Part shown: positions 1 through 37,133 of the stretch, in pieces
How the letters are laid out: each line of letters starts with the position of its first letter
Position numbering within the stretch: the first letter of the stretch is position 1
Translations under genes and position numbers: made by a program
Virus record (IMG/VR): IMGVR_UViG_3300040810_000362
Coordinates: 1 to 37,133 of that record
DNA from: a virus
DNA length: 37,133 nucleotides
Reading direction: 5' to 3' (one strand)
Notes under the pieces: model-generated
Told to the model about the DNA's origin: nothing
Seen by the model: only the letters and a program-made list of their open reading frames with translations
The model's database searches: none

Positions 1-127
1 CAAAGATCATCGAGCTTGATGTATTCTTTGGATCCGCACCCCCAGACTTCCATCAAGTCAATGAAACGTGAGTCCCAATATCTGGTGGCCCTGAAGGGGA
101 ATGAAGGTGTGATGCCGTGGAGCAGTG
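1..127. repeat. 127-bp terminal direct repeat (circular assembly overlap)
   Basis: Bases 1-127 are identical to 37007-37133. The copies meet inside one open reading frame, which reads through without interruption when the ends are joined. A 127-base overlap equals the largest k-mer commonly used by short-read assemblers, so it is best read as the closure of a circular contig rather than a biological terminal repeat. The unique genome length is then 37,006 bp. This fits circularly permuted or cohesive-ended packaged DNA. Confidence 0.95.
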
Positions 128-485
128 ATCTTCGGAACAGGAATGGCAGATCAAATCCGTTTGAGTTGAATCCAACCCAACGCATACCTGGTTGATCAGT
201 GACTTCATTCCAAAACCACTCAAGGATCTCAGCCTCTGATTTCTGGCGTTGATCAACAATGAGTGTCGATCCGTCATGAGCCTGTTTCACTCCTATCGCC
301 AAAACCTGTCCAGTCGTGGCTGATAGTGCAGCCTTCTCAATCCATCGAGCTTCCTGCTGCTTCAAGTTTGCTTCGATTTTTTCAGGATCTTTGAAGTTTT
401 TCGGTGCCTCAAACTCAGGCATCAGATCCACCAACTGCGGCACTGGCAGTGGTCCGGTTTCAATGTCAAATACGTTATATCTCAT
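1..485 (-). CDS. PolB-like 3'-5' exonuclease (N-terminal part, continues at 37006)
   Basis: The gene starts with ATG at 485 and runs off base 1 to continue at 37006, ending at 36832. The joined product is 219 residues. It carries the three DEDD exonuclease motifs: FDIET (D7, E9), GFNSNGFDLPFL (D112) and YLKMDLELTEAL (D195). This matches the predicted 3'-5' exonucleases related to the PolB proofreading domain, not a full polymerase. It would degrade single-stranded 3' ends using two metal ions, probably in recombination or repair beside the ssDNA-annealing-like gene just upstream (501-1547). A purine-rich AGAGAGGAAAA and the AAACCAGAAA box precede the start. The gene is cut only by the point where the circle was opened. 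Confidence 0.85.
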   Translation of the reverse strand, partial: MRYNVFDIETGPLPVPQLVDLMPEFEAPKNFKDPEKIEANLKQQEARWIEKAALSATTGQVLAIGVKQAHDGSTLIVDQRQKSEAEILEWFWNEVTDQPGMRWVGFNSNGFDLPFLFRRSLLHGITPSFPFRATRYWDSRFIDLMEVWGCGSKEYIKLDDL

Positions 486-500
486 TTCTGGTTTTCCTCT

Positions 501-1547
501 CTATTTAATGCTGTTTAAAAATGCTTCTGGCTGGCTCAACACTGCTCGCAGATGTTTATCGCTCAGATCAGCCCATCCTGCTCCTGCCTCAAACCATCCA
601 GATTCAATGCAGTAAGCCTCTACTGCTTCCTCATTGCCCTTGATCACTTCGGTAAATTTGGCCACCAGATCAGCGTGTTCCATCGTTGGATCTGCCTTGA
701 CCTTGGCCTTTTTCTTGGGCTTCGGTTTCTCTTCTGGCATATCGAATGAAACATTGTCATCATCTGCTGGAGTTGATTGCTCTGGCTTGCGGCTGGTAAG
801 AGTGAAATAATCCTCACGCTTGGCATGACCGTCCTTGATGCTGGTGTAAATACTCCGGAGGTTGTTGAGTTCATCCTCGATGATGTTCTCCAATTTATGC
901 CCCAAGTATGCCTCGATCATCGGCACATCCACCCCGATCAGGTGAAAGGCATTGCACATCTTCCTTGCTCGATCTCTGATCGGTTCAACTCCGCTGCTCA
1001 GTGTCTTGTTACACTGTGCCAAGGCTTCCTCCACAATATCCCCAGGAATCACGTTTAAGATGCATGCTCGCATCCTTCTGGCTCCCATGTTGGCCACCAG
1101 TTCATAAATGTCCCGTTCATCGGTCAGCTTCTTCGATCCCTGCTTGGTGTCCCGAACATGGCGCACTTGGAAAACAATCGTCCTTTTGACGTTGGTTTCC
1201 AGATCCCAACAATACGCCATGACCGAAGATTCCCCATCATTTCGATCCAGCTCGATCAGTCCGAAATCCATGTTGCCCCAATTCTGAGCCAACACTTCAG
1301 CCAGCCTAATGCTTGGGCCGATCACCAGTCCTCCACCCCTCGGGTAAGCATAGGTGGCTTTTTCAGCCAAAGTCTTCCGCTTGCAAGACTCGATGATGTT
1401 TCGATAAGCAATGTTTTGATCCCGTGGGAATCGCTTTGCAACTGCCATTGCTGCTTGGACCTCCGCAGCCTTCCGGTTACTCTCAGCCATTGCCATTGAT
1501 CCTCCAGCCATTGCTGGAGCCGTTTGATTGTATGTTGTTAGTTCCAT
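501..1547 (-). CDS. Probable phage recombination / ssDNA-annealing protein
   Basis: The product has 348 residues. Its N-terminal two thirds resemble a conserved phage family marked by a YPRGGGLVIGPSIRLAE segment followed by WGN (about residues 68-92) and by repeated Arg/Lys-rich helices. I know this family from phage recombination and replication neighbourhoods, but its annealing activity is inferred, not proven. A linker rich in Pro, Lys and acidic residues (about 260-290) leads to a small C-terminal domain with GWFEAGAGWADLSDKHLRAV. The gene lies 15 bp upstream of a 3'-5' exonuclease gene, giving the exonuclease-plus-annealase pairing typical of phage recombination. Its start is preceded by AAAACCAGAAAAAACT, the recurrent early-gene leader, with no clear Shine-Dalgarno. 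It could instead be an ERF- or RecT-like protein of another fold. Confidence 0.6.
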   Translation of the reverse strand: MELTTYNQTAPAMAGGSMAMAESNRKAAEVQAAMAVAKRFPRDQNIAYRNIIESCKRKTLAEKATYAYPRGGGLVIGPSIRLAEVLAQNWGNMDFGLIELDRNDGESSVMAYCWDLETNVKRTIVFQVRHVRDTKQGSKKLTDERDIYELVANMGARRMRACILNVIPGDIVEEALAQCNKTLSSGVEPIRDRARKMCNAFHLIGVDVPMIEAYLGHKLENIIEDELNNLRSIYTSIKDGHAKREDYFTLTSRKPEQSTPADDDNVSFDMPEEKPKPKKKAKVKADPTMEHADLVAKFTEVIKGNEEAVEAYCIESGWFEAGAGWADLSDKHLRAVLSQPEAFLNSIK

Positions 1548-1568
1548 AGTTTTTTCTGGTTTTATTGT

Positions 1569-1586
1569 GGGGCGGTTTCCCGCCCC
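1569..1586. other. GC-rich perfect hairpin between two early genes
   Basis: GGGGCGG and CCGCCCC pair perfectly around a TTTC loop. It lies between the 54-residue gene (stop at 1600) and the start at 1547. Neither side has a clear U-tract in the minus direction (ACAATAAAACC follows), so it is not a standard terminator. It may attenuate transcription or shape initiation of the annealing-like gene; the plus-strand flank is more T-rich but no plus-strand gene ends here. Confidence 0.55.
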
Positions 1587-2675: not shown

Positions 2676-2953
2676 TCTTCCTCCTTTTTGCTCATGGCTT
2701 CTTGGATCGGTTTGGTAACGTGATCCCTGTATTCTTCCGCTGTTATTTGCGGATACAAATTTCTAACCAAAGCACTCTCGATTCGATCTTTGAGATAAGC
2801 CATGTATTCCTTTTCACTGACCCCTGCTACCTCTCGCCAGACCTTCCAATTCTTTTCCCACTGCCCAAGGATGTAGGAGAATGCTCCAACGATTGCCGGT
2901 GTGCAGAATCGATCATGCTTGATGTCAATTTCTGATAGTTTGGTTTTTTTCAT
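2672..2953 (-). CDS. Hypothetical early protein, 93 residues
   Basis: A soluble, charged, mainly helical product with aromatic residues clustered at about 28-38 (LGQWEKNWKVW) and an acidic, lysine-rich C-terminus (SKKEEE). No motif or family is recognised. It overlaps both neighbours by 4 bp in ATGA form, so it is translated as part of operon A, just before the wall hydrolase. Confidence 0.6.
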   Translation of the reverse strand: MKKTKLSEIDIKHDRFCTPAIVGAFSYILGQWEKNWKVWREVAGVSEKEYMAYLKDRIESALVRNLYPQITAEEYRDHVTKPIQEAMSKKEEE

Positions 2954-3735
2954 TTCAAAATCTCCGCACGTTTTTTACCAAGTCGAATTTGCTTCATTTT
3001 TTGCCCCTGAAGATGCCCATTAAAAGCAATGATGCAGCGTTCGATGATGCTGATCTTGTCGGTTCTGCTTTTCCTTGGCAACTGTGCAAATGCCTTGTTC
3101 AGTGCGATGATTGGCGACCCTTCAGAAATGTTGGTCATGTTTTTTATTTTGTCATGGAATGCCAAAATTGACTCAGGCCAATGTTTTTCAGCCATATAAT
3201 AAAAAGCTCCCCAACTGCTCGGAACAACAACATGCTTCATTTCTTCAGCAGCTTTCGCAGCATTAGCAAAACTTGAATAATCTTTGTCAATTATTGATTT
3301 AACTTCGACGTGACTCATTGACCGATCCCATGAGGTGCCAGAGTCATAGTCTGCAACAGCACGCACTATGGCTGGAACCAGTGTTGCATACTGCAGACCT
3401 TCAATCCTCATCGCATCTGCTGCGCTTCTCGGCGCACCTGCATCAATCGTTTCAAACACACCATGTTCACCTGGAATGTTGGTTGTGACAACCGTCTCTA
3501 TCGGTTTTTCACATTGAGCAACGGCCATCAATCGGTGCTGACCATCAAGCAGAATGTTCTGATCCGATATTTTAATTGATTCCCCGTTGAGCTTCCAAAG
3601 CCCTGCTTCAATGTCTCGGATGTATTTTTTAATTCTTGAAGGATAAATCCTTCGATTATTCTTGTTGTATATTTTAAGCCAAAGTTTGGCGATTTCCGGT
3701 GTGATTGTAATGATTTCTGATTTGATTGTGTTCAT
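2950..3735 (-). CDS. DGQHR-motif ParB/sulfiredoxin-fold protein
   Basis: The 261-residue product has an N-terminal ParB/Srx-like domain (about residues 7-100). It shows a helical RRIYPSRIKKYIRDIEAGLW segment, then ILLDGQHRLMAVAQ with the DGQHR motif at 64-68, and FETIDAGAPRSAADAMRIEG. Such proteins occur in phages and mobile elements beside DNA-modification or partition genes; the DGQHR/GHGR-type motif binds nucleotide or DNA. The C-terminal part is helical and unassigned. I chose the ATG at 3735 because the early-gene leader AAACCAGAAAAAAACT lies just before it; an in-frame extension to 3807 would overlap the upstream gene. The biological role is not clear; a second ParB-like protein is encoded at 27185-27736. 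Confidence 0.65.
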   Translation of the reverse strand: MNTIKSEIITITPEIAKLWLKIYNKNNRRIYPSRIKKYIRDIEAGLWKLNGESIKISDQNILLDGQHRLMAVAQCEKPIETVVTTNIPGEHGVFETIDAGAPRSAADAMRIEGLQYATLVPAIVRAVADYDSGTSWDRSMSHVEVKSIIDKDYSSFANAAKAAEEMKHVVVPSSWGAFYYMAEKHWPESILAFHDKIKNMTNISEGSPIIALNKAFAQLPRKSRTDKISIIERCIIAFNGHLQGQKMKQIRLGKKRAEILK

Positions 3736-3758
3736 AGTTTTTTTCTGGTTTGTTGTTT

Positions 3759-3962
3759 TTATTTTTGGATGTAGTAGCTGATAAAACTGTATCGGTTGCT
3801 GTCCCAATTTGGATGCTCCAACGTGTAGCCCTTGCCGAATTTGCCTTGGTACGGTGTGACAAAGCCATCCGTTTTGCGAGAGATGTATCGGCGTGTTAGG
3901 GCTGTGTGGTGCAGCTCAAATTTGCTGCTGTTTTTCAATTCTTCTGGTGTTGGCATTTTCAT
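3759..3962 (-). CDS. Hypothetical early protein, 67 residues
   Basis: The product is basic and aromatic (RRYISRKTDGFVTPYQGKFGKGYTLEHPNWDSNRYSFISYY) and looks like a small beta-rich domain; no family is recognised. Its start is preceded by AAATCAGAAATAAAACC, a variant of the shared early leader. It is followed by a 23-bp gap to the DGQHR protein start. Confidence 0.55.
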   Translation of the reverse strand: MKMPTPEELKNSSKFELHHTALTRRYISRKTDGFVTPYQGKFGKGYTLEHPNWDSNRYSFISYYIQK

Positions 3963-4197: not shown

Positions 4198-4425
4198 TTC
4201 GTTTCTTTCTAGTTTGCGTAGCACGCACATTCAATTCGGGTGATGCTGTCAGACGGGCGGCGGCCATCATATTTTTCAATCCTGTTCAACAATGCCCGTT
4301 CTCCGAGATTGGGCTTTTTGTCAATAACGCTCATTTGGTATTCAAAATGAGCGTTATAGTATGGGGAGAATGCAGTGAAGGTGATTGTGTATAGGTATTT
4401 CATTTCGTTTCTTTCTGGTTTCTCT
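4197..4425 (-). repeat. Duplicated translation leader in front of two early genes
   Basis: The 22 bases around the start of the gene at 4403 recur at the start of the gene at 4197, with one mismatch (AAACCAGAAAGAAACGAA against AAACTAGAAAGAAACGAA). The duplication covers the untranslated leader and the start codon, while the coding sequences differ. It may be a shared regulatory or ribosome-binding element. Confidence 0.6.
4209..4403 (-). CDS. Hypothetical early protein, 64 residues, first gene of operon A
   Basis: It begins MKYLYTITFTAFSPYYNAHFEYQMSV and ends IECACYAN. The pattern suggests a small beta-alpha domain; no family is recognised. It is the first gene after promoter P1, with about 45 bases of untranslated leader containing AAACCAGAAAGAAACGAA. 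Confidence 0.55.
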   Translation of the reverse strand: MKYLYTITFTAFSPYYNAHFEYQMSVIDKKPNLGERALLNRIEKYDGRRPSDSITRIECACYAN

Positions 4426-4451
4426 TGGGATCATTCCCTCGATCTGGAAAC

Positions 4452-4480
4452 AATATCCCATATCCCCCACCATTTGTAAA
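4452..4480 (-). promoter_or_regulatory. Early promoter P1, sigma70-like
   Basis: On the minus strand TTTACA (4475-4480), a 17-bp spacer and GATATT (4452-4457) with TGG just before the -10 (extended -10) lie about 50 bases upstream of the gene at 4403. The -35 and the two bases after it (TTTACAAA) match those of P2. The interval 4404-4538 also has to carry any promoter of the divergent glycosyltransferase gene, but I see no convincing plus-strand boxes. Confidence 0.5.
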
Positions 4481-4538
4481 GACAAAAGTAAAACTTTTTT
4501 CATCTTTTCTTCCATCCTCTTTTTGGCATCATCTCGGA

Positions 4539-5633
4539 ATGCGTCCTAAACGTAAACCAGTCAACTATTTCCATGAAATCCAGAGGCAAGCAGATCAAGA
4601 TCAAAGGCAGCTCTATGTCAATGCGATGTTCAACCCAGCGAATGGTTATGGTGATCTGGCAAAACATTTTTGCGTTGAGGCATCCAGGATGATTGACCTC
4701 GGGATAATCCCGCACGGTGGAGATACCAGAGTCCTGCAACGTGCGGGACTCATGGATCGAGTGGAGCATCGGATTCATAACATCAACTCGCTGCTGTCCA
4801 TTCAACCAACATTCTCACTCATGCAGCACAATAATGCCAAAGCAGGAGCTATGTTCACGATGTTTGAAACGTCCAGACTCAAACCTGAGTGGATCAGGGC
4901 GATGAACACTTACAAGATCGTCATCACTCCATCCCATTTCAATGCTTCCGATTTTGCAGAACAGTTAACGGTTCCAGTCGAGGTGGCGAATATGGGTCAT
5001 GATCACAACTTGTTCACCCTGCATCCGTATCCACGCAAGGGTCCGTTCATTTTCGGAGCTGCTGCCCATGTTGGCCACGGTCGGACCAGAAAAGGCATCG
5101 AGAGGATCATTGATTGGTTCTGCTCGGCATTTCCTAATCAAAAGGATGTTAGGCTTTCCCTTAAACTCAATGCGTATCCTGAGAACGGAATCATCCCAAA
5201 TGATCCAAGGATCTCAGTGATCGAGCAGGATCTCAGCGACGAGGATTGCCGTGATTGGCTCCGGTCAATTCATTGCTACATTGACGGCAGCACATTTGAA
5301 GGATGGGGCATGTGGAATCATCATGCGATGGCAACAGGTCGTCCAGTGATCGGATCAAATTATTCAGCCAGATGTGAGTATTTCAAATTTGGAAATCACA
5401 TTCCGATTGGCTATCGTGTGATCCCTGCTTCTGATCAATACGTTGGACTAGGACACTGGGCAATGCCTGACAGATCAGATGCAATCGAAGCTATGCGATG
5501 GGCATTTCAGAACCCAAGCAAGTGCAGGGCTATCGGCAAAAAGGCTCACCAAACGGTTAGCCTTATGACTTGGGAGATGTTCGCAAAGCGTGTTCTCAGG
5601 ATTCTCCGCAAACACAGAATTTTTTCAAATTGA
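4539..5633 (+). CDS. GT4-type (GT-B fold) glycosyltransferase
   Basis: This is the only credible plus-strand gene. The 364-residue protein has the GT4 C-terminal signature: FEGWGMWNHHAMATGRPVIGS around residues 252-272, containing the conserved glutamate and the Gly/Pro loop that bind the nucleotide sugar. It would transfer a sugar from a nucleotide-activated donor; acceptor unknown. The ATG at 4539 is preferred because the upstream extension (to 4425) is low-complexity and overlaps the early promoter region, but the ribosome site is weak (CTCGGA). Its 3' end overlaps the convergent GT2 gene by 38 bp. GATC density (about 17 sites by eye) matches the genome backbone, unlike the adjacent GT2/FkbM genes, so it may have a different history. 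Confidence 0.8.
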   Translation: MRPKRKPVNYFHEIQRQADQDQRQLYVNAMFNPANGYGDLAKHFCVEASRMIDLGIIPHGGDTRVLQRAGLMDRVEHRIHNINSLLSIQPTFSLMQHNNAKAGAMFTMFETSRLKPEWIRAMNTYKIVITPSHFNASDFAEQLTVPVEVANMGHDHNLFTLHPYPRKGPFIFGAAAHVGHGRTRKGIERIIDWFCSAFPNQKDVRLSLKLNAYPENGIIPNDPRISVIEQDLSDEDCRDWLRSIHCYIDGSTFEGWGMWNHHAMATGRPVIGSNYSARCEYFKFGNHIPIGYRVIPASDQYVGLGHWAMPDRSDAIEAMRWAFQNPSKCRAIGKKAHQTVSLMTWEMFAKRVLRILRKHRIFSN

Positions 5634-6285
5634 AAGGCTTTTTGTAAACCTCACTCCCAGGACTCCCACCCCATTTTTGTTTGTATCTGTAATCGTTTGA
5701 ATTAATGCAGTTTTGCATTTGTGAAATGAAAGTTTTGCCTGATGCTTTATTTTTTACAACTGACCTGCTCAATGCATTCTTTAGGATTTTTGTTTCTGGA
5801 GTCTTAAAATCTAATCCTTCGAGTTGCATTCTCCACCAATAATCCGCATCCTCGTAGTAGGCTGGATAAAAAGCATCATCAAATCTTCCAATCAACTTTT
5901 CTGCCTGAATCGGATGAATTGCCCAAAATTTGAAATTGTAATTTTCACCACTAAAAATCGGATGCTTTTGGTGGCTGTTCATTAGATCAATCATTGTCTC
6001 GATTCCATCCGGCAGAATCATCGTATCATCATTTGTGACAATGCATCTTTCCAATCCTAAATCAAAAACCAAATTCCAAGCTGAAGCCAGCCCCATGTTG
6101 TTGGAGGCAATAACATCAAGTTTTGGAAAACCAAAATCAAGCAACCGTTTTTTTTGCAACCTCCCGTTTGAGTTATCAACAATCACAACTTGATCAGGAA
6201 CCTTTGTTTGTATTTGGATCGAAAAGAGCAATCTCTCAAGCAGATCGAAACGGTTGAACGTAACAACCATCATCGTTGTTTTCAT
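5596..6285 (-). CDS. GT2-type (GT-A fold) glycosyltransferase
   Basis: The 229-residue protein opens with a GT-A core: MMVVTFNRFDLLERLLFSI, VVIVDNSN, ASNNMGLASAWN, then CIVTNDDTMI with the metal-binding DD at 86-87. YYEDADYWWRM near 143-152 provides the likely ED base motif. The fold and motifs are typical of family 2 transferases. It is the last gene of the late operon, directly after an FkbM methyltransferase, so it may decorate a virion protein or a host surface glycan. The 3' end overlaps the plus-strand GT4 gene. The sequence is more AT-rich and GATC-poor than the genome backbone, a sign of later acquisition. Confidence 0.85.
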   Translation of the reverse strand: MKTTMMVVTFNRFDLLERLLFSIQIQTKVPDQVVIVDNSNGRLQKKRLLDFGFPKLDVIASNNMGLASAWNLVFDLGLERCIVTNDDTMILPDGIETMIDLMNSHQKHPIFSGENYNFKFWAIHPIQAEKLIGRFDDAFYPAYYEDADYWWRMQLEGLDFKTPETKILKNALSRSVVKNKASGKTFISQMQNCINSNDYRYKQKWGGSPGSEVYKKPFNLKKFCVCGES

Positions 6286-6291
6286 ATAATT

Positions 6292-6888
6292 TCAATGAAA
6301 AGCCCAAAAGTTTCCAAGATCATTGTTCCGTTTTTTGACCAAAGTCCTGAATCCGTTTTCATGGAAAAATCTACTCAGGTCATCCCAAAAGAAACCATCA
6401 AAACGGTGGTACTCTCCTGCAATCAGCTTGACCTTTCTGATTTTCTCGCACGGCAAGAGTGCTTTGTATTCTGACCCCTCACAGTCTATTTTCAAGATGT
6501 CAACCTGACCAACCCAATTGATTATGTCATCAAGAGAAATCGTTGGAACACCCGCACCTGACGCAGCAACAGGACACCCACCTGTGTTCCTCATATCGTG
6601 TGACTGGATGCTTTTACAAAAACCACCTGAAGATTCACGCACAGCATACTTGTGTGCAGTGATGCTTGTCCCTTGTGAATTTTGCTTCAGTAGATTGAAG
6701 TTGTCTTCATTCGGTTCAAATGCATAAACTGATCTTGCCCCACCATTGTGAGCCAAGACAGAAAAGCATCCAACGTGTGCGCCAATATCAACAACTGTTG
6801 CACCAGCGAAATTTTCAATCATGTATTCATTTTCAGAAAACACTGCCTGATAAATATCCTCGTCCCATGTTCCAGCTCTGATTTTCAT
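6292..6888 (-). CDS. FkbM-family SAM-dependent methyltransferase
   Basis: The 198-residue product has methyltransferase motif I (VVDIGAHVGCFSVLA, about 32-46), an acidic loop in YAFEPNEDN, and the FkbM hallmark VDILKIDCEGSEYKALL. FkbM enzymes O-methylate sugars or similar acceptors using S-adenosylmethionine. The ATG at 6888 is chosen: the GTG at 6897 overlaps the stop of the upstream gene and adds only three residues. Together with GT2 it forms a small glycan-modifying unit at the end of the tail operon, likely making a methyl-capped sugar. Confidence 0.85.
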   Translation of the reverse strand: MKIRAGTWDEDIYQAVFSENEYMIENFAGATVVDIGAHVGCFSVLAHNGGARSVYAFEPNEDNFNLLKQNSQGTSITAHKYAVRESSGGFCKSIQSHDMRNTGGCPVAASGAGVPTISLDDIINWVGQVDILKIDCEGSEYKALLPCEKIRKVKLIAGEYHRFDGFFWDDLSRFFHENGFRTLVKKRNNDLGNFWAFH

Positions 6889-6890
6889 GT

Positions 6891-7121
6891 TCACCACTTC
6901 CCTGCATCACATTTGACCGCAGAAAACTTTGACTTCAATTCCATGTTGCAGCCACAAAGACTGCACTTCGTTTCATTCGGTCTTTTCCTTGCATAATCAC
7001 AGGTCCGACACAATCCTAACCTGATCTGATAAAGTTCATCACTGACTTTTTCAAATTTGCTCATGATCACCTTGCTTGCACTTTTAGCAAACCCTGCGAT
7101 TTGTTTCCCGATGCTTGGCAT
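6891..7121 (-). CDS. Small zinc-ribbon protein of a phage family (CxxC, CxCxxC, GKW end)
   Basis: The 76-residue form starts MPSIGKQIAGFAKSASK and has CRTC, CSLCGC and a final KCDAGKW. This is a familiar phage/metagenome family, with an amphipathic N-terminus and a Cys-rich C-terminus ending GKW, that often lies near glycosyltransferase or tail genes; its function is unknown. I chose the ATG at 7121 because family members usually begin at MPSI; an in-frame TTG at 7187 would add 22 residues and overlap the FN3 gene by 11 bp. It sits just upstream of the FkbM gene. Confidence 0.65.
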   Translation of the reverse strand: MPSIGKQIAGFAKSASKVIMSKFEKVSDELYQIRLGLCRTCDYARKRPNETKCSLCGCNMELKSKFSAVKCDAGKW

Positions 7122-7176
7122 TTTAACAGGCTTCTGCTTGTAGCCATTCTTCGGGACAAATTCGATGATGCGTGTT

Positions 7177-29597: not shown

Positions 29598-29803
29598 GCT
29601 TCCTCCTTCCACCACCAATAAAAGTATCGTCTAAGTGAGCGCAATGGACAACCTTCTATGCGTGGATTATCCGGTAAAACCCATAAGGTTCCTGACCGGT
29701 TCGTGATTTTTGCAGTGACCCAGATGTTGCCTATCAGGAATGTGATGGTGTCACCTTCATAAACCCATTCCCCGTCATCGTCTTTAAATCGTGGTTTGCT
29801 CAT
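29594..29803 (-). CDS. Hypothetical small beta-rich protein, 69 residues
   Basis: MSKPRFKDDDGEWVYEGDTI then ITFLIGNIWVTAKITNRSG and a basic aromatic end (RYFYWWWKEEA). It looks like an SH3-type small barrel. It overlaps both neighbours by 4 bp. No family is recognised. Confidence 0.55.
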   Translation of the reverse strand: MSKPRFKDDDGEWVYEGDTITFLIGNIWVTAKITNRSGTLWVLPDNPRIEGCPLRSLRRYFYWWWKEEA

Positions 29804-30240: not shown

Positions 30241-30257
30241 AATCTTCTCTTTCTAAA

Positions 30258-30353
30258 TTATGCCGTCTCTCCGGCTGTCAGGGTTTGTTCAGCACTGGCA
30301 ATGCCCTCAGTGCTGTTGTCAATTGTGGAGTTGTGCTTGGTCCCATCTGGCAT
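30258..30353 (-). CDS. Possible 31-residue protein
   Basis: The reading frame MPDGTKHNSTIDNSTEG ... LTAGETA stops just at the leader of the Lar-like gene. AAAGGAGGTG stands directly before the ATG at 30353, slightly close. A second, shorter ATG ORF (22 residues) starts 7 bases downstream with better spacing, so the exact product is uncertain. No family is recognised. Confidence 0.4.
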   Translation of the reverse strand: MPDGTKHNSTIDNSTEGIASAEQTLTAGETA

Positions 30354-30368
30354 CACCTCCTTTCTGAA

Positions 30369-30539
30369 TCAGTGTTCGTAGCCTTTGTATTTCGGTTCAG
30401 GGCAACACTCAGGGTTGATATGTGCCTTATGTCTTAGCGACCTGTTGACCTTTTGCTTCATCCATTTCCTAGACCTGCGGCACTTGCCCTCTCTGGTTTT
30501 ATTGTCCAACAGTTTCTCGGGTTCCTGTCGTGCTTTCAT
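30369..30539 (-). CDS. Small basic protein, 56 residues
   Basis: MKARQEPEKLLDNKTREGKCRR then SRKWMKQKVNRSLRHKA and INPECCPEPKYKGYEH: strongly basic, with three Cys. Its leader (TTTAGAAAGAGAAGATT before the ATG) is the same as that of the Lar-like gene. It may bind nucleic acid. No family is recognised. Confidence 0.5.
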   Translation of the reverse strand: MKARQEPEKLLDNKTREGKCRRSRKWMKQKVNRSLRHKAHINPECCPEPKYKGYEH

Positions 30540-30551
30540 AATCTTCTCTTT

Positions 30552-30668
30552 CTAAATTGGTGGCCAGTCCGGTTTCTCACCGGAGCCGCTTGGCTTGGAC
30601 CTCCTAGCCTTTGTTGCGCGGTTTTTACTGGCCGTTAATCTGTCATCAAAAGTGTTGTCCAATAGCAT
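30552..30668 (-). CDS. Possible 38-residue basic protein
   Basis: The ORF MLLDNTFDDRLTASKNRATKARRSKP ends SGEKPDWPPI and overlaps the 48-residue membrane protein in another frame. It stops within the leader of the next gene. Composition (Lys/Arg, Ser, Pro) looks protein-like, but there is no clear ribosome site. Confidence 0.35.
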   Translation of the reverse strand: MLLDNTFDDRLTASKNRATKARRSKPSGSGEKPDWPPI

Positions 30669-30781
30669 ATATTCATGCTTACTAATCCTGCTGCCATCAC
30701 ATGACCTCTGGAAACAAGCTCCCAAGTCGCCCATGCACAGATGACGAGCAGCATGCCACTGACATAATATCGGAGCCTCAT
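30635..30781 (-). CDS. Small membrane protein, 48 residues
   Basis: MRLRYYVSGMLLVICAWATWELV has one membrane segment at about 6-22; a second hydrophobic stretch (MAAGLVSMNICYWTTLL) follows. It starts in the ATGA overlap with the DUF551 gene. A small inner-membrane protein; no family is recognised. Confidence 0.55.
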   Translation of the reverse strand: MRLRYYVSGMLLVICAWATWELVSRGHVMAAGLVSMNICYWTTLLMTD

Positions 30782-31068
30782 TCCGTCGCCTCCGGCAAAT
30801 CAAGGTCGAGCCAGTGGGTAATAAGCCCGACGAACATGCCGTCATGCATACGGTCGCAAACGGGTTTCTCTTTATCCTTAAACCAAACAAAGCCTTCAAA
30901 ATCGCCATCCTCATCAAACTTTGGCAACCGCTCACTGACCGGCACCCATTTTCCGATGGCGTAGCCATCCAAAACTGCTTGTGACCGCTCCGCTTGTAAC
31001 GGAAGGTTTCTACGGTTATCAGCAAGTTCGCGCCCAAGTCGGCGACCTAATTCTTCTCTTGGTGTCAT
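30778..31068 (-). CDS. DUF551-like protein
   Basis: The 96-residue protein ends with the DUF551 pattern: KWVPVSERLPKFDEDGDFEG, then FVWFKD and FVGLITHWLDLDLPEA. DUF551 proteins are common in phages of enterobacteria and related Gram-negative hosts; their function is unknown. It overlaps both neighbours by 4 bp. Confidence 0.75.
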   Translation of the reverse strand: MTPREELGRRLGRELADNRRNLPLQAERSQAVLDGYAIGKWVPVSERLPKFDEDGDFEGFVWFKDKEKPVCDRMHDGMFVGLITHWLDLDLPEATE

Positions 31069-31256
31069 TCTTTTCCTTTCTCGTTTTTTAGCTCATGCGC
31101 TTCCTTAATAAGTGAAGCAAGTCGGACCTCGTAATCAATCCGCTCTTTTAAAACCTTCTCGAAATCCAGCTCCAGAATTCGGTTGTGGTATCCAATTTTG
31201 TAAAAGCAGAAGCTCCACAATGACACGATTACCAGCTTAACAAGAAATGCACTCAT
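31065..31256 (-). CDS. Small membrane-anchored coiled-coil protein
   Basis: The 63-residue product has an N-terminal membrane segment (MSAFLVKLVIVSLWSFCFYKIG) followed by a charged helix (LDFEKVLKERIDYEVRLASLIKEAHELKN). This is the layout of inner-membrane spanins (Rz-like), but it is away from the lysis cassette, so that role is only a possibility. It overlaps the DUF551 gene by 4 bp. Confidence 0.55.
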   Translation of the reverse strand: MSAFLVKLVIVSLWSFCFYKIGYHNRILELDFEKVLKERIDYEVRLASLIKEAHELKNEKGKE

Positions 31257-31314
31257 CCCCGTTTTTCTCCCGCCAGTAATACTGTCCCGGTTTGGTTGGT
31301 AGTTCGGTGCTCAT
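31237..31314 (-). CDS. Possible 25-residue protein, MSTELPTKPGQYYW-type
   Basis: The frame starts MSTELPTKPGQYYWREKNGDE and stops after CISC. The ATG overlaps the beta-helix gene stop by 4 bp (ATGA), and the LPTKPGQYYWRE segment is like that of longer phage proteins with a PGYYW motif, so this looks like a truncated member whose later part was lost. It overlaps the membrane-protein start by 20 bp. Confidence 0.4.
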   Translation of the reverse strand: MSTELPTKPGQYYWREKNGDECISC

Positions 31315-32549
31315 AGAAAAACCTCCCCTGCATTGTGCCATCCTGCTGTTTTTTGCACACGCTCATTTTTGTCTGCTCGTATATCACCAAAATATGCTCC
31401 GACAAATGGGGACAAATGATCCTCTTCCATTCGATTCCATGATGGAATACAGAATGTTGCTCCAACAAGTTCATTATTTTTTGCCCAAACCCTGCCGTCC
31501 GCTGTTGGCTTTGCATATGCTTGATTGCCCATGCTGATTCTTGACCTGCCACCGTGGGAGTAGATGCACTGAGAATACCCGAAAAACCGATTGAAGCATG
31601 TCTGGACTGCTTGTCCTGAATAAAAGATTCCAGCTTGCTTGCGGCTTCCGTTGTGTATCATCCTATGCGGTCCTTCAAACTGATTGTGGTTGATCGTTGC
31701 ATCTCCAAGGTAAACGTCATCTCCGGATCTTGCTGATTTCGGCATCCAATCTGCATCAATATCTGGGCCGTGGAATATGCCAATGTTGCTTCCTTGATGG
31801 GCTTGAATGTTGTTGTTAATTAGCTGAAGCCTGTCAGGGTTCTGAGCCAGATAAACCGGAACACAGTTGTTGTGCGCCACAATCATGCAGTCCCTGATTT
31901 CCTGTTCAAACGGCCTGACAATCATTCCATTCGGAAGTTCGGTTGCTGGCTCGGTGTAAATACCAATCGGATGACCAACGCATGGGTTCCAGCCAAAGAT
32001 GGATTCAACCATCAAAACCTTTTCACCATCTCCCATCGTGCGGATTGCTGGACCCCATCTTGTGACTGAACGCATCTGAAACCGCCCAGGTATCCGAATG
32101 GTGTTGTGGAAGCGATATTCACTTCCAGAGAACAGCAGGGTGATTACTGGCATATGGGTGGACCCATACCAACCTTTTCCTGACGGTGATTTTCCAAATT
32201 CAGACTGAAACTTTTCCTCCCCTTCTTCCCAAAATGGCTGCTGAATTTTTTGGCCTTTTTTAATGGCTTCTTGGAGTGATTTGTCAGGGTTAGCGTGATC
32301 AATCAGGAATGTGTATTCATCCTGATCGGATTGCGGTTTCAGGTCTTTCATGAATTGCTCCACCACTGAAACCGTGATTGATTTAACATCATCGTTTGAC
32401 ATTATGCCAACGAGCCTGTTCTCAAGGTTCTGAATTCTGGCACTCTGCGTGTTTATGACGTTATGTTGAGCTTGAATAAGCTCCTGTGTTGTGTCTGGCA
32501 GCTTCGCCAGTTCTCCGATTGATTCGGCTAATTTGATCAGTTCTTTCAT
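31311..32549 (-). CDS. Beta-helix (pectate-lyase-like) protein in the early region
   Basis: The 412-residue protein has a helical coiled N-terminus (MKELIKLAESIGELAKLPDT through QSARIQNLENRLVG) and then a likely right-handed parallel beta-helix: IPGRFQMRSVTRWGPAIRTMG, RDCMIVAHNNCVPVYLAQNP, LQLINNNIQAHQGSNIGIFHG, ATINHNQFEGPHRMIHNG, CFNRFFGYSQCIYSHGG. Phage tailspikes and depolymerases use this fold, but this gene lies among replication genes, not tail genes. It may be a misplaced spike, a moron, or an enzyme acting on host glycans. GATC sites are scarce here. Confidence 0.6.
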   Translation of the reverse strand: MKELIKLAESIGELAKLPDTTQELIQAQHNVINTQSARIQNLENRLVGIMSNDDVKSITVSVVEQFMKDLKPQSDQDEYTFLIDHANPDKSLQEAIKKGQKIQQPFWEEGEEKFQSEFGKSPSGKGWYGSTHMPVITLLFSGSEYRFHNTIRIPGRFQMRSVTRWGPAIRTMGDGEKVLMVESIFGWNPCVGHPIGIYTEPATELPNGMIVRPFEQEIRDCMIVAHNNCVPVYLAQNPDRLQLINNNIQAHQGSNIGIFHGPDIDADWMPKSARSGDDVYLGDATINHNQFEGPHRMIHNGSRKQAGIFYSGQAVQTCFNRFFGYSQCIYSHGGRSRISMGNQAYAKPTADGRVWAKNNELVGATFCIPSWNRMEEDHLSPFVGAYFGDIRADKNERVQKTAGWHNAGEVFL

Positions 32550-32595
32550 GGTTTTAATTTGTTAAAATATCTTCATGGTTTGTATTCCGCTTTAT

Positions 32596-32904
32596 TCAAG
32601 CATCCTTCTCACAGAACCCAACGTCCCGAATTGACTCATTTTGTTGAAAAAAACGGTCAATCGTTTTGCAATCTGTGTAATCACAAATTCCTTTGGACTT
32701 GTTTATATCAATGTCCTGAATATGATATGCCTGATCCTTGGAAGGTTTAAACAAGACAGCTTGCACCACTCCTCGTCGGTATGATTTCTCTGATAATCTG
32801 GACATCAGTTTCAGAAGTTTTCTTTTTGTTGATTTCGGCAATTCAGCAAACTCATTATATTGCAAGCCATGACATATGCTGTTTTTTGGGAAGCAAATTT
32901 TCAT
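32596..32904 (-). CDS. Hypothetical early protein, 102 residues
   Basis: MKICFPKNSICHGLQYNEFAEL at the start, a basic helix (STKRKLLKLMSRLSEKSYRRG) and several Cys (GICDYTDCKT, GFCEKD). The ATG at 32904 overlaps the upstream stop (ATGA) and has AAGGATGGGA upstream; an ATG two codons earlier is possible. No family is recognised. Confidence 0.5.
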   Translation of the reverse strand: MKICFPKNSICHGLQYNEFAELPKSTKRKLLKLMSRLSEKSYRRGVVQAVLFKPSKDQAYHIQDIDINKSKGICDYTDCKTIDRFFQQNESIRDVGFCEKDA

Positions 32905-33179
32905 TCCCATCCTTTCGCTTTGAAAACCTTTCGGATAAAATGATTCACCATGTCAGAAGTGACCCAGTTTTTTTCTGTAAGGTGTAACACTTTTTTCAAT
33001 AAAACTTTTTCCGTTGAAATTTCTCCAAGCGATATATCATACCATCCGTTTAAAGTAATCCATTTCCCTTTCACCTTTACTTTTCTGTCCATCTCATCCT
33101 GGATGATTTGCCCATTTTTCATCACATCATCTATTGTGAGAAGCCTTATGCACGGTTCATCTTGTTTTTGTTTGGTCAT
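32901..33179 (-). CDS. Hypothetical early protein, 92 residues
   Basis: MTKQKQDEPCIRLLTIDDVMKN then a beta-type middle (KVKGKWITLNGWYDISLGEI) and a basic helix end. AGAAAGAAAAACC lies before the ATG. No family is recognised. Confidence 0.5.
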   Translation of the reverse strand: MTKQKQDEPCIRLLTIDDVMKNGQIIQDEMDRKVKVKGKWITLNGWYDISLGEISTEKVLLKKVLHLTEKNWVTSDMVNHFIRKVFKAKGWE

Positions 33180-33191
33180 GGTTTTTCTTTC

Positions 33192-33479
33192 TCAAAATGG
33201 CACTTCATCATCATCCATTGCGTCAATGTCTGGTGTGGTTTCCGGTGCCGGTTTGTGTTCTGTTCTTTGGATCTCCATTTTCAGGTTTCCGATGATCGGA
33301 CCTCGTTGCCCTGCGTCTCTGGCTTCCTTGCTGATGCCTTGGCAAATGCAATGAGTGTTCCCGTATTGATCTGGACCGTTTTTGTTTTCCCAGATCACCA
33401 GATCGAGGTATTTCCCGTTTTTACCTGCGAACAGGTGTTCTTTTTCAATTCTGGTTACATTAATTTTTGCTGTGATCAT
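33192..33479 (-). CDS. SSB-like single-stranded DNA-binding protein
   Basis: The 95-residue protein resembles small phage proteins with INVTRIEKEHLFAGKNGKYLDLVIWENKNGPDQYGN and CQGISKEARDAGQRGPIIGNLK. It ends in the acidic, Phe-terminated tail DIDAMDDDEVPF, the hallmark by which SSBs bind partner proteins. It should coat ssDNA during replication or recombination. It overlaps the DnaA-domain-like gene by 4 bp. Confidence 0.65.
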   Translation of the reverse strand: MITAKINVTRIEKEHLFAGKNGKYLDLVIWENKNGPDQYGNTHCICQGISKEARDAGQRGPIIGNLKMEIQRTEHKPAPETTPDIDAMDDDEVPF

Positions 33480-33775
33480 AACTCTGTGTTTTTTAGTTTT
33501 TCTTCGATGTTTTGGTATGCTTTACGAAATGCTTTGTTGGTTTCGATCAATGTTGGAACAGTCTGCCGTGCATGTCGAACTGAACTGCCCTTTTTCCGGT
33601 TGAAATAATAGGCCACAGTTAAATCTGCTGCTCCCATATATCGCCAAGCCAGATACATTGCAGCCAATCTTGGGAAGCTGATTGCCTCGGTTTTTGATCT
33701 GCCTTTGATCGCTCTTGGAAAGACTCCAAATTCTTGGGCTGTTGTCTCGATGATTTTTTCGATGATTTGCTTCAT
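33476..33775 (-). CDS. DnaA domain IV-like DNA-binding protein
   Basis: The 99-residue protein matches the C-terminal helix-turn-helix of DnaA: EFGVFPRAIKGRSKTEAISFPRLAAMYLAW, then TVAYYFNRKKGSSVRHARQTV. There is no ATPase domain, so it cannot be a full DnaA. Stand-alone domain IV proteins may recognise DnaA-box-like sites at a phage origin or compete with host DnaA. It sits between SSB-like and replication genes. Confidence 0.7.
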   Translation of the reverse strand: MKQIIEKIIETTAQEFGVFPRAIKGRSKTEAISFPRLAAMYLAWRYMGAADLTVAYYFNRKKGSSVRHARQTVPTLIETNKAFRKAYQNIEEKLKNTEL

Positions 33776-33999
33776 GATTTCTCCGTATAAGTGAATCCAC
33801 GTTCCTCTTGGATCAGTTCGTATTTATTTGCCAGATCTGTAAATCCAGCTTTCCTGCAAAACCAGACAAGTGTCGCCTCTGCTTGGGAGTGAGCAATCTG
33901 GCTTGATGTTGGGTTGATCTTGCTCAAGTGATTCAGGGCATGTTTCTCAGTCACCCTTGCCATGTCCCATTTCTGGGCTTTTTGTTCTGCTTCGGTCAT
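33772..33999 (-). CDS. Hypothetical early protein, 75 residues
   Basis: A charged helical protein (MTEAEQKAQKWDMARVTEKHALNHLSK ... FTDLANKYELIQEERGF). No family is recognised. It overlaps both neighbours by 4 bp, between the DnaA-like and zinc-containing replication genes. Confidence 0.55.
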   Translation of the reverse strand: MTEAEQKAQKWDMARVTEKHALNHLSKINPTSSQIAHSQAEATLVWFCRKAGFTDLANKYELIQEERGFTYTEKS

Positions 34000-34640
34000 A
34001 CAGTCTCCATTTCTTTACCCTGCATCCACCGCAGAAGGTTTTTGATCTGCCCAATTTGCTGGTTTACGGTCATGCTTGGATCATAAAGTTGATCCTCCAT
34101 TTTCGCCAAAAATGTAAATGCAGCCCTTGGACGTGTCCAAATGATCCTCCCAATGTCCTGCGACCAGACCAAATTTGGGGAGTTTTTCATTCTCCGGAGT
34201 GCATCACTCCATTTCTTCGTCCATGAATGAAGGATCTTCCCCATGCGTTCCTGTTGCTCAACTGGGCATCTGAACTCCTTTTTGGACGGATCATAATTTC
34301 TCCCAAGCCAAGCAACCACTTTTCCAATTGCTTCCTTGGATGCTTCATAATCTCGCTTTGCAGCATAGCACCATTCACAAGCTGTATTTTTAATCATGGA
34401 TTGAATGACAGACTCACATCCTGCCCAAGTCTGTTTTTCGCCCCTCTCAGGGCCTTTTGCATCGTGCCCGCTATCATATACCTCCCTGAACATACTATGC
34501 CCTTGAAGGGCTAATTCTGTGCCACAAACGCAGCATGTGGTTTTCACTTCGATCATCCGATCTGATTGAAGCTCTAAATCTGGCTTTTCAGCTTTCGGAA
34601 TTGCCTTGCGAATCCTCCATTTGTCTCTGTCTAATGCCAT
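33996..34640 (-). CDS. Replication-region protein with Cys pairs, 214 residues
   Basis: The protein has CCVCGTE (about 36-41) and NTACEWC near 90, a possible zinc site, then a mixed helical C-terminus rich in Trp (HSWTKKWSDALRRM, IGRIIWTRPRAAF). Lying just downstream of the initiator-like gene it may be a helicase-loader or primase accessory, but no motif shows this. Confidence 0.5.
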   Translation of the reverse strand: MALDRDKWRIRKAIPKAEKPDLELQSDRMIEVKTTCCVCGTELALQGHSMFREVYDSGHDAKGPERGEKQTWAGCESVIQSMIKNTACEWCYAAKRDYEASKEAIGKVVAWLGRNYDPSKKEFRCPVEQQERMGKILHSWTKKWSDALRRMKNSPNLVWSQDIGRIIWTRPRAAFTFLAKMEDQLYDPSMTVNQQIGQIKNLLRWMQGKEMETV

Positions 34641-34641
34641 A

Positions 34642-35415
34642 TCAAATCTCTATTTTTTTATAACCTGTTGACTGTTTTCCATTTGGCTGCATGGTTCTCC
34701 TTCTTTCGGACCATGATTTCAATGCCATTTTCCATTTGATCATCTTTCCGTATTGGTTGACCCATAACTGCTTGGATTCATTATACTCCCAAAATGATCT
34801 TGCATGTTCATCTGGTATGCCCCTGACTTCGGCTTCAGCAATCACCTCCTCCAGAGTTGGGATCTCAGCAAAATCTGTTTGCGAAGCTGATCCTCTCTCT
34901 CTCTCATTTTCCTTAGAGAGAGATTTATCTCTCTCTGGATAATGGTTAATGGATAATAACATAGTTGAGCTTTCGTTGGTGTTCTGTTCCAACGTCTGTT
35001 CAACGTCCGTTGATACGTTCGTTATAGGGTCCGTTGGCATGGTTTTGTTGGCTTTCAATACTTTACGCCTTATTTTTGCGCTAAGTTTTCCTGCGTTTTG
35101 CGCGAGAGTTTGCTTTTCGCAAAATTTCAAAAACTCATCTTTTATTCGAAAGTTTGATACAAAAACAAGATCACCTTCGTAAGAAACTTCACCAACTCCA
35201 GCCTGATCAATCTCATCAATCACCCTCTTTGCAACCCTCTTACTCACCCCAAGCAGCCTCGCCCATGAACTAATCTTGTATCCAGCTTTTCCTGGAGAAT
35301 CTACCTGTGCCAAGTGGCAAAGAATATCCATCCATGCACCCCTTGCTTCTAGTGACAACATTCTGGTATCATTAAAATAATCTGCCCAGAAAAATTTTGA
35401 GTAAGGAAGTCCCAT
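34642..35415 (-). CDS. Replication initiator / helicase loader-like protein
   Basis: The 257-residue protein starts with a DUF1376/DnaD-like winged helix (YSKFFWADYFNDTRMLSLEARGAWMDILCHL, ARLLGVSKRVAKRVIDEIDQAG), then a charged linker (about 100-180) and a C-terminal module (ARSFWEYNESKQLWVNQYGKMIKWKMALKSWSERRRTM) like that of DnaT/DnaD and phage replication proteins. It should bind the origin and load the host DnaB-type helicase. No own helicase or polymerase is encoded, so host replication proteins must be used. Confidence 0.65.
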   Translation of the reverse strand: MGLPYSKFFWADYFNDTRMLSLEARGAWMDILCHLAQVDSPGKAGYKISSWARLLGVSKRVAKRVIDEIDQAGVGEVSYEGDLVFVSNFRIKDEFLKFCEKQTLAQNAGKLSAKIRRKVLKANKTMPTDPITNVSTDVEQTLEQNTNESSTMLLSINHYPERDKSLSKENERERGSASQTDFAEIPTLEEVIAEAEVRGIPDEHARSFWEYNESKQLWVNQYGKMIKWKMALKSWSERRRTMQPNGKQSTGYKKIEI

Positions 35416-35417
35416 AA

Positions 35418-35582
35418 TTATTTTTGCAAGTGATGTGCCATGATGATTTTTGATACATATTCGCTTCGATACAAATCTCCACGCTCATCATCAATGATTT
35501 TTGCCACGTTTTCAGGAACTGATATGCACAAGGTCTTGTGCTTCGGTCCCCTTTTAGGTGGTCTGCCCAATTTTGTCTTCAT
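35418..35582 (-). CDS. RHH-type regulator with GRP hook, copy 1
   Basis: The 54-residue protein starts MKTKLGRPPKRGPKHK, a GRP AT-hook-like tail, followed by the RHH strand and helices (TLCISVPENVAKIIDDERGDLYRSEYVSKIIMAHH). It is the first gene after promoter P3, with the -10 box ending 6 nt before the ATG, so its mRNA is likely leaderless. It is a paralogue of the gene at 35678-35842. It may repress P3 by binding the tandem repeats just upstream (35645-35671). Confidence 0.7.
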   Translation of the reverse strand: MKTKLGRPPKRGPKHKTLCISVPENVAKIIDDERGDLYRSEYVSKIIMAHHLQK

Positions 35583-35588
35583 GTTTTA

Positions 35589-35616
35589 ATAATACGCAAA
35601 TCGGTTTGTTTGTAAA
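35589..35616 (-). promoter_or_regulatory. Early promoter P3, sigma70-like, apparently leaderless
   Basis: On the minus strand TTTACA (35611-35616) and TATTAT (35589-35594) are separated by 16 bp. The -10 ends 6 nt (TAAAAC) before the ATG at 35582, so the start site is expected at the ATG itself, as at P2. It would drive the replication operon. Confidence 0.6.
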
Positions 35617-35644
35617 GGGAAATTATCAATGGGAATTCTTACCC

Positions 35645-35671
35645 ATGTTTACAATGTTTACATTTTTTACA
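35645..35671. repeat. Three tandem 9-bp repeats, operator or iteron-like
   Basis: On the plus strand two identical ATGTTTACA units (35645-35653, 35654-35662) are followed by a degenerate TTTTTTACA (35663-35671). They lie just upstream of promoter P3, between two RHH genes. A TGTAAA in the opposite orientation (35611-35616) is the -35 box of P3. ATGGG/CCCAT pairs (35629-35633, 35642-35646) form a small inverted repeat. They may be RHH operators or replication iterons. Confidence 0.6.
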
Positions 35672-35677
35672 TTTATC

Positions 35678-35842
35678 TCACCCATCATAACCAGCACCAA
35701 CGCATTTTCTGAGTTGTTTCCTGACCCATTCCCCTCGGCTCAGATCCCCACGGGCTTTGTCCCATATCTCCCACTCATCAGGATAAAGGCTGATTGTCCT
35801 GCAAACTGATTTCCGCTTTTTACTTGGTCGTCCTAATTTCAT
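35678..35842 (-). CDS. RHH-type regulator with GRP hook, copy 2
   Basis: The 54-residue protein starts MKLGRPSKKRKSVCRTISLYPDEW and has a helix pair including RGDLSRGEWVRKQLRK. It aligns with the other small RHH protein (35418-35582): both have LGRP near the start and an RGDLxRxEWV or RGDLxRSEYV core. It lies directly upstream of P3 and its operator-like repeats, suggesting paralogous RHH proteins regulating the junction between operons B and C. It overlaps the nuclease gene by 23 bp. Confidence 0.65.
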   Translation of the reverse strand: MKLGRPSKKRKSVCRTISLYPDEWEIWDKARGDLSRGEWVRKQLRKCVGAGYDG

Positions 35843-36134
35843 CTCGTTTAATTGTTTGATTGATCACTTCGATTGCTTCATCAAGGCTTTTGATCACGAC
35901 TGCTGATCCTCGCCATGTCCTGAAAAACTGTTCTTCGTCTGGTGTTAATCTACGTGCTGATGGTGGCTTGGATCCGTCTTTGATCTCCATCAAAATAGTG
36001 TAGCCGCCAAAGCCGACCGCAATATCAGGACACCCTTTCCCCACTTGGCTTAGGATCAGGACGCTGCATTCAGCCTTCCGTAATCCCTGCACGATTTGCC
36101 TCTGATTTGCATCGACTTTGGCAGCTCGCTTCAT
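35820..36134 (-). CDS. PD-(D/E)XK nuclease, VRR-NUC-like
   Basis: The 104-residue protein has the PD-(D/E)XK nuclease core: GCPDIAVGFGGYTILMEIKDGSK, with D37, E50 and K52, and a GTP-like Lys-rich end (RDEIRTTK). Small nucleases of this kind act on branched or flap DNA during recombination or replication. It overlaps the upstream gene by 4 bp and the RHH gene by 23 bp. Confidence 0.7.
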   Translation of the reverse strand: MKRAAKVDANQRQIVQGLRKAECSVLILSQVGKGCPDIAVGFGGYTILMEIKDGSKPPSARRLTPDEEQFFRTWRGSAVVIKSLDEAIEVINQTIKRDEIRTTK

Positions 36135-36304
36135 TCCGAATCCTTGGTGTATATTCTTGATTGTCTAACCATCCCATCCCACTCAAAAGTGGCAACTTTT
36201 TCACCAAACAGATCCTCATTGATTTCGATCACTCTTACTAAGTCAATGTCAACTCTGAGGTATCCCACCAGCACATAAGTCATCTGCTTGCGCTCCATGA
36301 TCAT
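36131..36304 (-). CDS. Hypothetical early protein, 57 residues
   Basis: The 57-residue product starts MIMERKQMTYVLVGYLRVDIDLV and looks beta-rich. The ATG at 36304 overlaps the preceding stop by 4 bp (ATGA). An earlier extension to 36319 would only add residues from the overlap. No family is recognised. Confidence 0.55.
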   Translation of the reverse strand: MIMERKQMTYVLVGYLRVDIDLVRVIEINEDLFGEKVATFEWDGMVRQSRIYTKDSE

Positions 36305-36579
36305 ACCGTTGCCCTCCATACGGCAGCACCGTCTCTCCGGTCATTGTTTCGCTCGATCCACCCGTCTCGGGCAAGCTCGGTGAACCGTCCAGAAATGGTG
36401 TTCAAGGGTCTGCCCGTCTGCTCTGAATACTCCTTGGCAGTAAGACCATGATCGAGTGATTTTTCGACTGCCATCAGCACATCAAGTCTGATCTGAGTCA
36501 TTGTTTTCTTGGCACGATCAAATGCCCGTTTTGAGGTCAAAACCCCTCCATGTTTTCGTTCACAAATATCAGTTTGCAT
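36301..36579 (-). CDS. Winged-helix DNA-binding protein, MarR-like
   Basis: The 92-residue form begins MQTDICERKHGGVLTSKRAFD and contains a winged helix: TAKEYSEQTGRPLNTISGRFTELARDGWIERNNDRRDGAAVWRAT. The ATG at 36579 has AAAGGGAC upstream and overlaps the previous gene by 11 bp; an extension to 36660 would run back through that gene. It is probably a transcription regulator or origin-binding protein. Confidence 0.65.
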   Translation of the reverse strand: MQTDICERKHGGVLTSKRAFDRAKKTMTQIRLDVLMAVEKSLDHGLTAKEYSEQTGRPLNTISGRFTELARDGWIERNNDRRDGAAVWRATV

Positions 36580-36835
36580 TTTTTTTGTCCCTTTCAATTT
36601 TCGCTTTCCGAACCACTCTGCAACGTAGATTTTCGATTTCTGAATCGGTGAGGATCTCATTTTTTGATGAATGGATCAGCCCAAGTTTCTGGCACCGCTT
36701 AACAGTCCTCTTGATAGCTTCCTCTGGGCAGTGTATGCCAGGAAAACTGCCCTTGATCTCATCCCATGTCACGGGTTTACCTCTCCATGATTGATCCTTG
36801 ATTGGCTCATACCACTTCATTCCACGTTTGCTCAT
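36569..36835 (-). CDS. Hypothetical early protein, 88 residues
   Basis: MSKRGMKWYEPIKDQSWRGKPVTWDEI, then a helical basic part (CPEEAIKRTVKRCQKLG, ENLRCRVVRKAKIERDKKN). No family is recognised. It overlaps the exonuclease gene by 4 bp and the winged-helix gene by 11 bp. Confidence 0.55.
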   Translation of the reverse strand: MSKRGMKWYEPIKDQSWRGKPVTWDEIKGSFPGIHCPEEAIKRTVKRCQKLGLIHSSKNEILTDSEIENLRCRVVRKAKIERDKKNAN

Positions 36836-37133
36836 CGCTGCCCTCCATTTGTCTCAGGGTTAATCCAAGGAAGGAATTTGAGCATCAATGCTTCAGTCAA
36901 TTCCAAATCCATTTTCAGATATTCAATCGCTGCCTTCGGATCCGTTACGAACATTTCGGCAAAATATTTCCCGCTTCCGGTCTTCCCACCGATCCCAACG
37001 TATCGGCAAAGATCATCGAGCTTGATGTATTCTTTGGATCCGCACCCCCAGACTTCCATCAAGTCAATGAAACGTGAGTCCCAATATCTGGTGGCCCTGA
37101 AGGGGAATGAAGGTGTGATGCCGTGGAGCAGTG
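36832..37133 (-). CDS. PolB-like 3'-5' exonuclease (C-terminal part, joins to 485..1)
   Basis: This is the 3' portion of the exonuclease that begins at 485. It holds the end of the catalytic core, with the third motif (YLKMDLELTEAL; D195 of the joined protein) and the C-terminus up to the stop at 36832. The internal TTG at 37062 is not a plausible start, because the reading frame is open through the circle junction. It overlaps the downstream gene (start 36835) by 4 bp in an ATGA arrangement, so the two are probably translationally coupled. Confidence 0.85.
   Translation of the reverse strand, partial: LLHGITPSFPFRATRYWDSRFIDLMEVWGCGSKEYIKLDDLCRYVGIGGKTGSGKYFAEMFVTDPKAAIEYLKMDLELTEALMLKFLPWINPETNGGQR

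Follow-up and report, generated by a model that had tools for sequence, protein, structure and literature searches.

Why should a phage genome contain the tetramer GATC far more often than its proteins and codon usage call for? This question is raised by the aquatic phage record IMGVR_UViG_3300040810_000362, which was analyzed over its whole length of 37,133 b (hereafter the window) and carries 375 GATC sites, i.e., one per 99 bp. The excess persists throughout the clade of the window, is absent from an exchangeable DNA-modification slot and from several accessory genes, and is reversed in a sister clade that has almost no GATC at all. The explanation we favor, with a probability of roughly 0.55, is a compositional habit of the whole clade, slowly built up by synonymous choice in phages whose hosts do not restrict GATC.

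Different null models give different sizes of the excess. Compared with base composition (zero-order), the ratio of observed to expected GATC is 2.70, and a first-order Markov model gives 1.86, which is rank 1 among the 256 tetramers. In a synonymous-codon shuffle, which keeps the proteins and the codon usage of the 48 called genes fixed, 353 sites stand against 233.0 ± 11.0 expected (ratio 1.51, z = 10.9). Allowing for protein and codon use raises the expectation in coding DNA from 125 to 233, and the surplus is found in all three frames, with 142 observed versus 107 expected sites for GAT-C, 59 versus 35 for nGA-TC and 152 versus 91 for nnG-ATC (hyphens mark codon junctions). If the dinucleotides at the codon junctions are fixed in addition, 263.9 sites are expected and the ratio is 1.34 (z = 6.9, the top value among all tetramers). 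On this null the excess requires a cause beyond codon use, as a preliminary description of this DNA had argued from the occurrence of sites in different frames. Its local counts (26 in 1-1800 and 31 in 22801-24300) were exact, but its chance rate of one site per 260 bp was too simple, because 14 of 50 Pseudomonadota genome pieces, all 14 of them GC-rich, also reach 2.7 times base composition; the excess itself stands at 1.51 times the codon null. A Markov ratio close to 1, proposed there as an argument against any enrichment, is approached solely by models that contain the signal (1.15 at maximal order and 1.11 with fixed junction trinucleotides). The maximal-order value cannot decide the matter, because a large share of all GAT and ATC trinucleotides lies within GATC. 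In non-coding DNA outside the accessory block described below, 19 sites were counted versus 11.7 expected, a small number that is compatible with both mutation and selection.

The excess is synonymous in nature. Within the window the aspartate codon is GAT in 0.87 of the cases before C versus 0.65 elsewhere, glycine is encoded by GGA in 0.64 before TC versus 0.36 elsewhere, and isoleucine by ATC in 0.56 after G versus 0.44 otherwise; control NAY codons shift before C too, but less (0.61 versus 0.51). The bases flanking GATC are nearly unconstrained. The commonest hexamer is TGATCA with 56 copies (1.51/kb), GGATCC accounts for 6 of the 375 sites, and a longer motif around GATC was not detected in the window. 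HIP1 (so named in PMC6604393), the palindrome GCGATCGC that is over-used in cyanobacteria, likewise has GATC at its centre, but the window lacks this octamer. A longer signal of the HIP1 type, as suggested in the preliminary description, is contradicted by the free flanks, by only 3 copies of CGATCG and by a commonest octamer with 8 copies. The spacing of the sites is near random and a regular spacing was rejected, as distance 26 alone stands out (11 versus 4.0 expected, z = 3.2) among 117 distances tested. A packaging signal, or any other positional one, does not fit this spacing, nor the replacement of individual sites at kept density described below. No other palindromic tetramer is significantly raised in the window under the junction-dinucleotide null, so a general excess of palindromes does not account for GATC. 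GTAC, CGCG, GCGC, GGCC and CCGG are under-used in the same null, with 4 copies of GTAC (0.03 times base composition) and 8 of CGCG in the window. Across the clade GTAC, CGCG and GCGC are avoided, and the hexamers GGGCCC, GTGCAC, CCGCGG and GATATC are nearly missing.

Relatives were collected from IMG/VR by their terminase and grouped by amino-acid identity. GATC is abundant in each of the 22 loci whose terminase is 75-99% identical, with first-order ratios of 1.62-2.32, and GTAC is scarce in every one of them. In the sister group (L023-L033; 11 loci, terminase 42-45% identical, GC content 0.58-0.67) GATC is almost nil, with 0 sites in most loci and a pooled first-order ratio of 0.03 over 10 loci. 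A search of four sister records for Mom, Dam-type and N6/N4 methylases, which did not include C5 methylases, was negative, and in the sister phage L032 none of the six open reading frames (ORFs) upstream of the terminase matched a modification family by Pfam. Within the clade of the window, GATC is retained at about 93% DNA identity in 0.95, 0.94 and 0.86 of the cases in the three frames, compared with tetramer means of 0.80, 0.80 and 0.71, and at about 70% identity it is not specially conserved in two of the three frames. Because the density persists while individual sites turn over at this distance, the pattern suggests a bulk preference and not a set of fixed functional sites.

Along the window, GATC is enriched over most of the genome, as described earlier, although the effect is smaller than stated there: 351 sites lie in 27.8 kb (12.6/kb) and 24 in five poor blocks of together 9.3 kb (2.6/kb). 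These blocks (2950-3807, 5596-6897, 16806-19157, 26503-27219 and 29125-33179) were chosen after the counts were seen, and they also hold six of the eight CGCG. Genes with a homologue in the relatives of 70% DNA identity reach 1.63 times the codon null, the remaining genes 1.30 times. In the following map, gene-level expectations are those of the synonymous shuffle.

1-2675: GATC-rich core block with 14-19 GATC/kb in genes and an expectation of about half; by family matches it contains a 3'-5' exonuclease-like gene (truncated where the window ends), a phrog_3657 gene (501-1547) and the gene 2259-2675
2950-3807, minus strand: GATC-poor gene of phrog_5931 (function unassigned), 3 GATC versus 5.2 expected
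4425-5633, plus strand: GATC-rich glycosyltransferase (phrog_2170), 19 versus 10.8, the sole called plus-strand gene
5596-6897, minus strand: GATC-poor accessory genes for a family-2 glycosyltransferase and an FkbM methyltransferase (Pfam), 6 versus 8.2
6891-16769, minus strand: GATC-rich tail and structural block, including a 1263-aa gene at 7629-11420 (40 versus 21.0) and the gene 15681-16187 (11 versus 6.3)
16806-19157, minus strand: GATC-poor block with a minor tail protein (tail PHROG match), 6 GATC in 2352 b
19201-26500, minus strand: GATC-rich head and packaging core (Pfam and PHROGs matches), with the next five genes
19878-20792, minus strand: major head protein
21254-22282, minus strand: Mu I-like protease
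22854-24848, minus strand: Mu-like portal, 36 versus 18.3
24855-26105, minus strand: terminase large subunit, 18 versus 7.6
26090-26500, minus strand: gene in the terminase-small-subunit position, assigned by position alone, with no Pfam match
26503-27219, minus strand: putative Mom-family DNA-modification gene, the GATC-poor slot occupant, 2 versus 3.5, GC content 0.36
27185-27736, minus strand: GATC-rich ParB-like gene, the constant neighbor of the slot, 11 versus 6.8
27724-29103, minus strand: three genes adjoining the accessory block, GATC near expectation (13 versus 11.0)
29125-33179, minus strand: GATC-poor accessory block, 7 GATC in 4055 b
33192-36660, minus strand: GATC-rich early block of six genes (PHROGs matches), 34 versus 19.6, with the next two genes
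34642-35415, minus strand: primosomal-like gene (PHROGs)
35820-36134, minus strand: endonuclease-like gene (PHROGs)

Relatives of the genes in 5596-6897 were not found among the fetched clade pieces, and homologues of those in 29125-33179 not in the relatives of 70% DNA identity. We assume that the genes with low GATC are recent arrivals.

The gene at 26503-27219 occupies a slot that is flanked by the ParB-like gene on one side and by the gene in the terminase-small-subunit position on the other. Its product is assigned to the Mom family by profile matches (PF25680, E = 4.4e-45, 154 bits at a cut-off of 27.1; phrog_1384, 4.8e-57). The ParB-like gene matches phrog_620 (3.5e-37) and phrog_498 (DNA methyltransferase, 9.7e-37) and is present in 20 of the 22 terminase loci. 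The same Mom gene is found in the window, L001, L003 and L022, and another Mom subfamily in L002. Elsewhere the slot holds an ABC-like ATPase with a GNAT acetyltransferase (L004), asparagine-synthase-like, C5-cytosine methylase and small methyltransferase genes (L006), an asparagine-synthase-like gene (L008), an N6/N4 methylase fused to a ParB-like part (L009), a TET/JBP oxygenase with an FkbM methyltransferase (L011) or TET-associated glycosyltransferases (L012 and L016); the contents in L005, L007, L010, L014, L015 and L017-L021 were assigned by ORF resemblance to the searched loci. Over 12 loci the slot genes contain 3.3 GATC/kb (ratio 1.28) versus 10.4/kb (ratio 2.04) in the adjoining core. 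Mom was rejected as the cause of the excess, since it is limited to the five genomes named above, yet all relatives are GATC-rich. As the excess is common to all slot types, no single modification chemistry explains it. The window was negative for PF02086, PF05869 and PF01555, in agreement with the earlier remark that no Dam gene is visible, and one N6/N4 methylase was detected among the relatives searched.

For the host question, 398 Pseudomonadota and 396 Actinomycetota genomes were sampled (794 in total; Verrucomicrobiota, Bacteroidota, Cyanobacteriota and Planctomycetota are outside this sample). A scan of bacterial genome contigs for the terminase gave no match with one sequence, and with an alignment merely relatives of 36-41% identity from unrelated phyla; neither the window nor the 22 loci contain tRNA genes that could be used for host matching, and a tetranucleotide comparison with the sampled Pseudomonadota gave no convincing host. 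Comparable GATC enrichment occurs in bacteria but is unusual, because none of the 50 Pseudomonadota pieces, drawn regardless of GATC, reaches a first-order ratio of 1.86 (median 1.24) and one of 30 further pieces, mostly from genomes picked for high TGATCA density, reaches 2.14.

Taken together, we assume that the GATC excess would be a genome-wide compositional habit of this phage clade, whose head genes are Mu-like. Genes of long residence would have acquired it gradually, through synonymous codons chosen according to their sequence context (GAT before C, ATC after G, GGA before TC). Drift or selection towards GATC could persist since the hosts of the clade presumably leave GATC unrestricted, and the same hosts appear to have penalized palindromes of other sequence, e.g., GTAC and CGCG. 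Candidate drivers are a match to host composition, a mutational or repair bias of the host, or a direct benefit of GATC. Several observations weigh against this explanation. With the junction trinucleotides fixed, the ratio of 1.11 has a z-score of only 2.7. The retention counts derive from seven related sequences and are hence non-independent. The contrast between core and accessory genes is partial, since several genes, among them 7629-11420 and 4425-5633, are rich in GATC and have no homologue in the distant relatives. Host composition may be the cause, but none of the searches described above yielded a host. Finally, the TGATCA density of the window is higher than in all 794 bacterial genomes (maxima about 0.95/kb in Pseudomonadota and about 0.59/kb in Actinomycetota); therefore, the host either belongs to neither sample or is itself poorer in this hexamer than its phage.

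It is conceivable, though we consider it rather unlikely, that GATC is selected directly, as a site that an enzyme of the host or the phage methylates or marks in another way, or that the ParB-like protein recognizes, and that a high density benefits the phage in protection, replication or self-recognition. GATC is the sole enriched palindrome amid general palindrome avoidance, it is strongly retained at about 93% identity, its density surpasses that of the sampled bacteria, and a ParB-like gene adjoins the modification slot across the clade; however, the modification genes vary between phages while the excess stays, the window has no Dam or N6/N4 methylase and the relatives searched a single one, and the sites turn over at 70% identity. 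A version in which the clade is selected for GATC whatever its modification gene, and the sister clade to near zero, with the ParB-like protein or a host mark as a possible reader, seems slightly more doubtful still.

That amino-acid composition, codon usage and a bias in short words produce the GATC excess as a mere by-product, without any force acting on the tetramer itself, is improbable to us. Protein and codon use do account for a large rise in expectation, and the nulls of highest order leave little surplus (1.11 and 1.15), but the trinucleotide and maximal-order models include the tested signal in their GAT and ATC counts, and under the junction-dinucleotide null GATC remains the top tetramer, with a lift in three frames. 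The preliminary description had also proposed a Dam-positive host that uses GATC for repair. A host with GATC-directed mismatch repair is very unlikely in view of 74 Pseudomonadota genomes, in which the eight MutH-positive ones have a lower GATC ratio (0.38-1.39, median 1.02) than the MutH-negative ones (median 1.27, p = 0.007), a comparison within one phylum in which MutH serves as a proxy for Dam. The two pieces richest in GATC derive from MutH-negative genomes. Chance can be discarded with near certainty, given z-scores of 10.9 and 6.9 and the repetition of the excess in 22 related loci.

The phenomenon is already known in kind, because it has been published for the B3 mycobacteriophages, in which GATC reaches about four times the expectation genome-wide, GGATCC is enriched too and the other B subclusters are without excess (PMC4841201). 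The authors also mention amelioration on the scale of the genome, without settling on a cause (PMC4841201). According to the description in that paper, the likeness to the clade of the window lies in a genome-wide excess in one phage group and its lack in related phages; in the window GGATCC is rare and TGATCA the commonest context, and host and genome are others. The clade of the window thus works like the B3 case but differs in signal, and represents a second, independent phage group with a genome-wide GATC excess. In a set of 46 phages with hosts that possess matching enzymes, GATC was found to be under-used without exception, which identifies it as a common target of selection in phages (PMC6286503). 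The clade of the window is the opposite of these phages. The sister clade resembles them by analogy only, which would be in line with GATC restriction in its hosts. Mom-type and other phage DNA-modification genes, including predicted modules of GNAT and ABC-type ATPase, have been compiled as well (PMC7824862). The Mom-family gene of the window and the GNAT and ABC-type ATPase modules of its relatives resemble these systems, but in the clade of the window several chemistries replace one another between close relatives in a single slot next to a ParB-like gene, and ‘ParB’ is absent from the main text of that paper. What raises the case above routine is the reversal in the sister clade, together with the exchangeable slot: a near-zero sister and close relatives with differing modification genes offer a way to examine whether host composition, restriction or a DNA mark determines how phages use tetramers. 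Of the two observations, the exchangeable slot next to the ParB-like gene may turn out to be more useful than the GATC excess.

A minor observation concerns the portal gene (22854-24848). Near its end, within residues ~443-560, a stretch of about 95 residues matches many viral contigs at 52-76% identity, although the rest of the portal is hardly covered by these matches, which resembles an exchanged domain. Unrelated viral contigs that have just part of the portal protein in common with the window show first-order GATC ratios of at most 1.57, several with zero GATC. In the contigs L087, L092, L094, L099, L100, L120, L121 and L125, the pooled ratios of AGCT, CTAG, GATC and GTAC are 0.00 in 112 kb.

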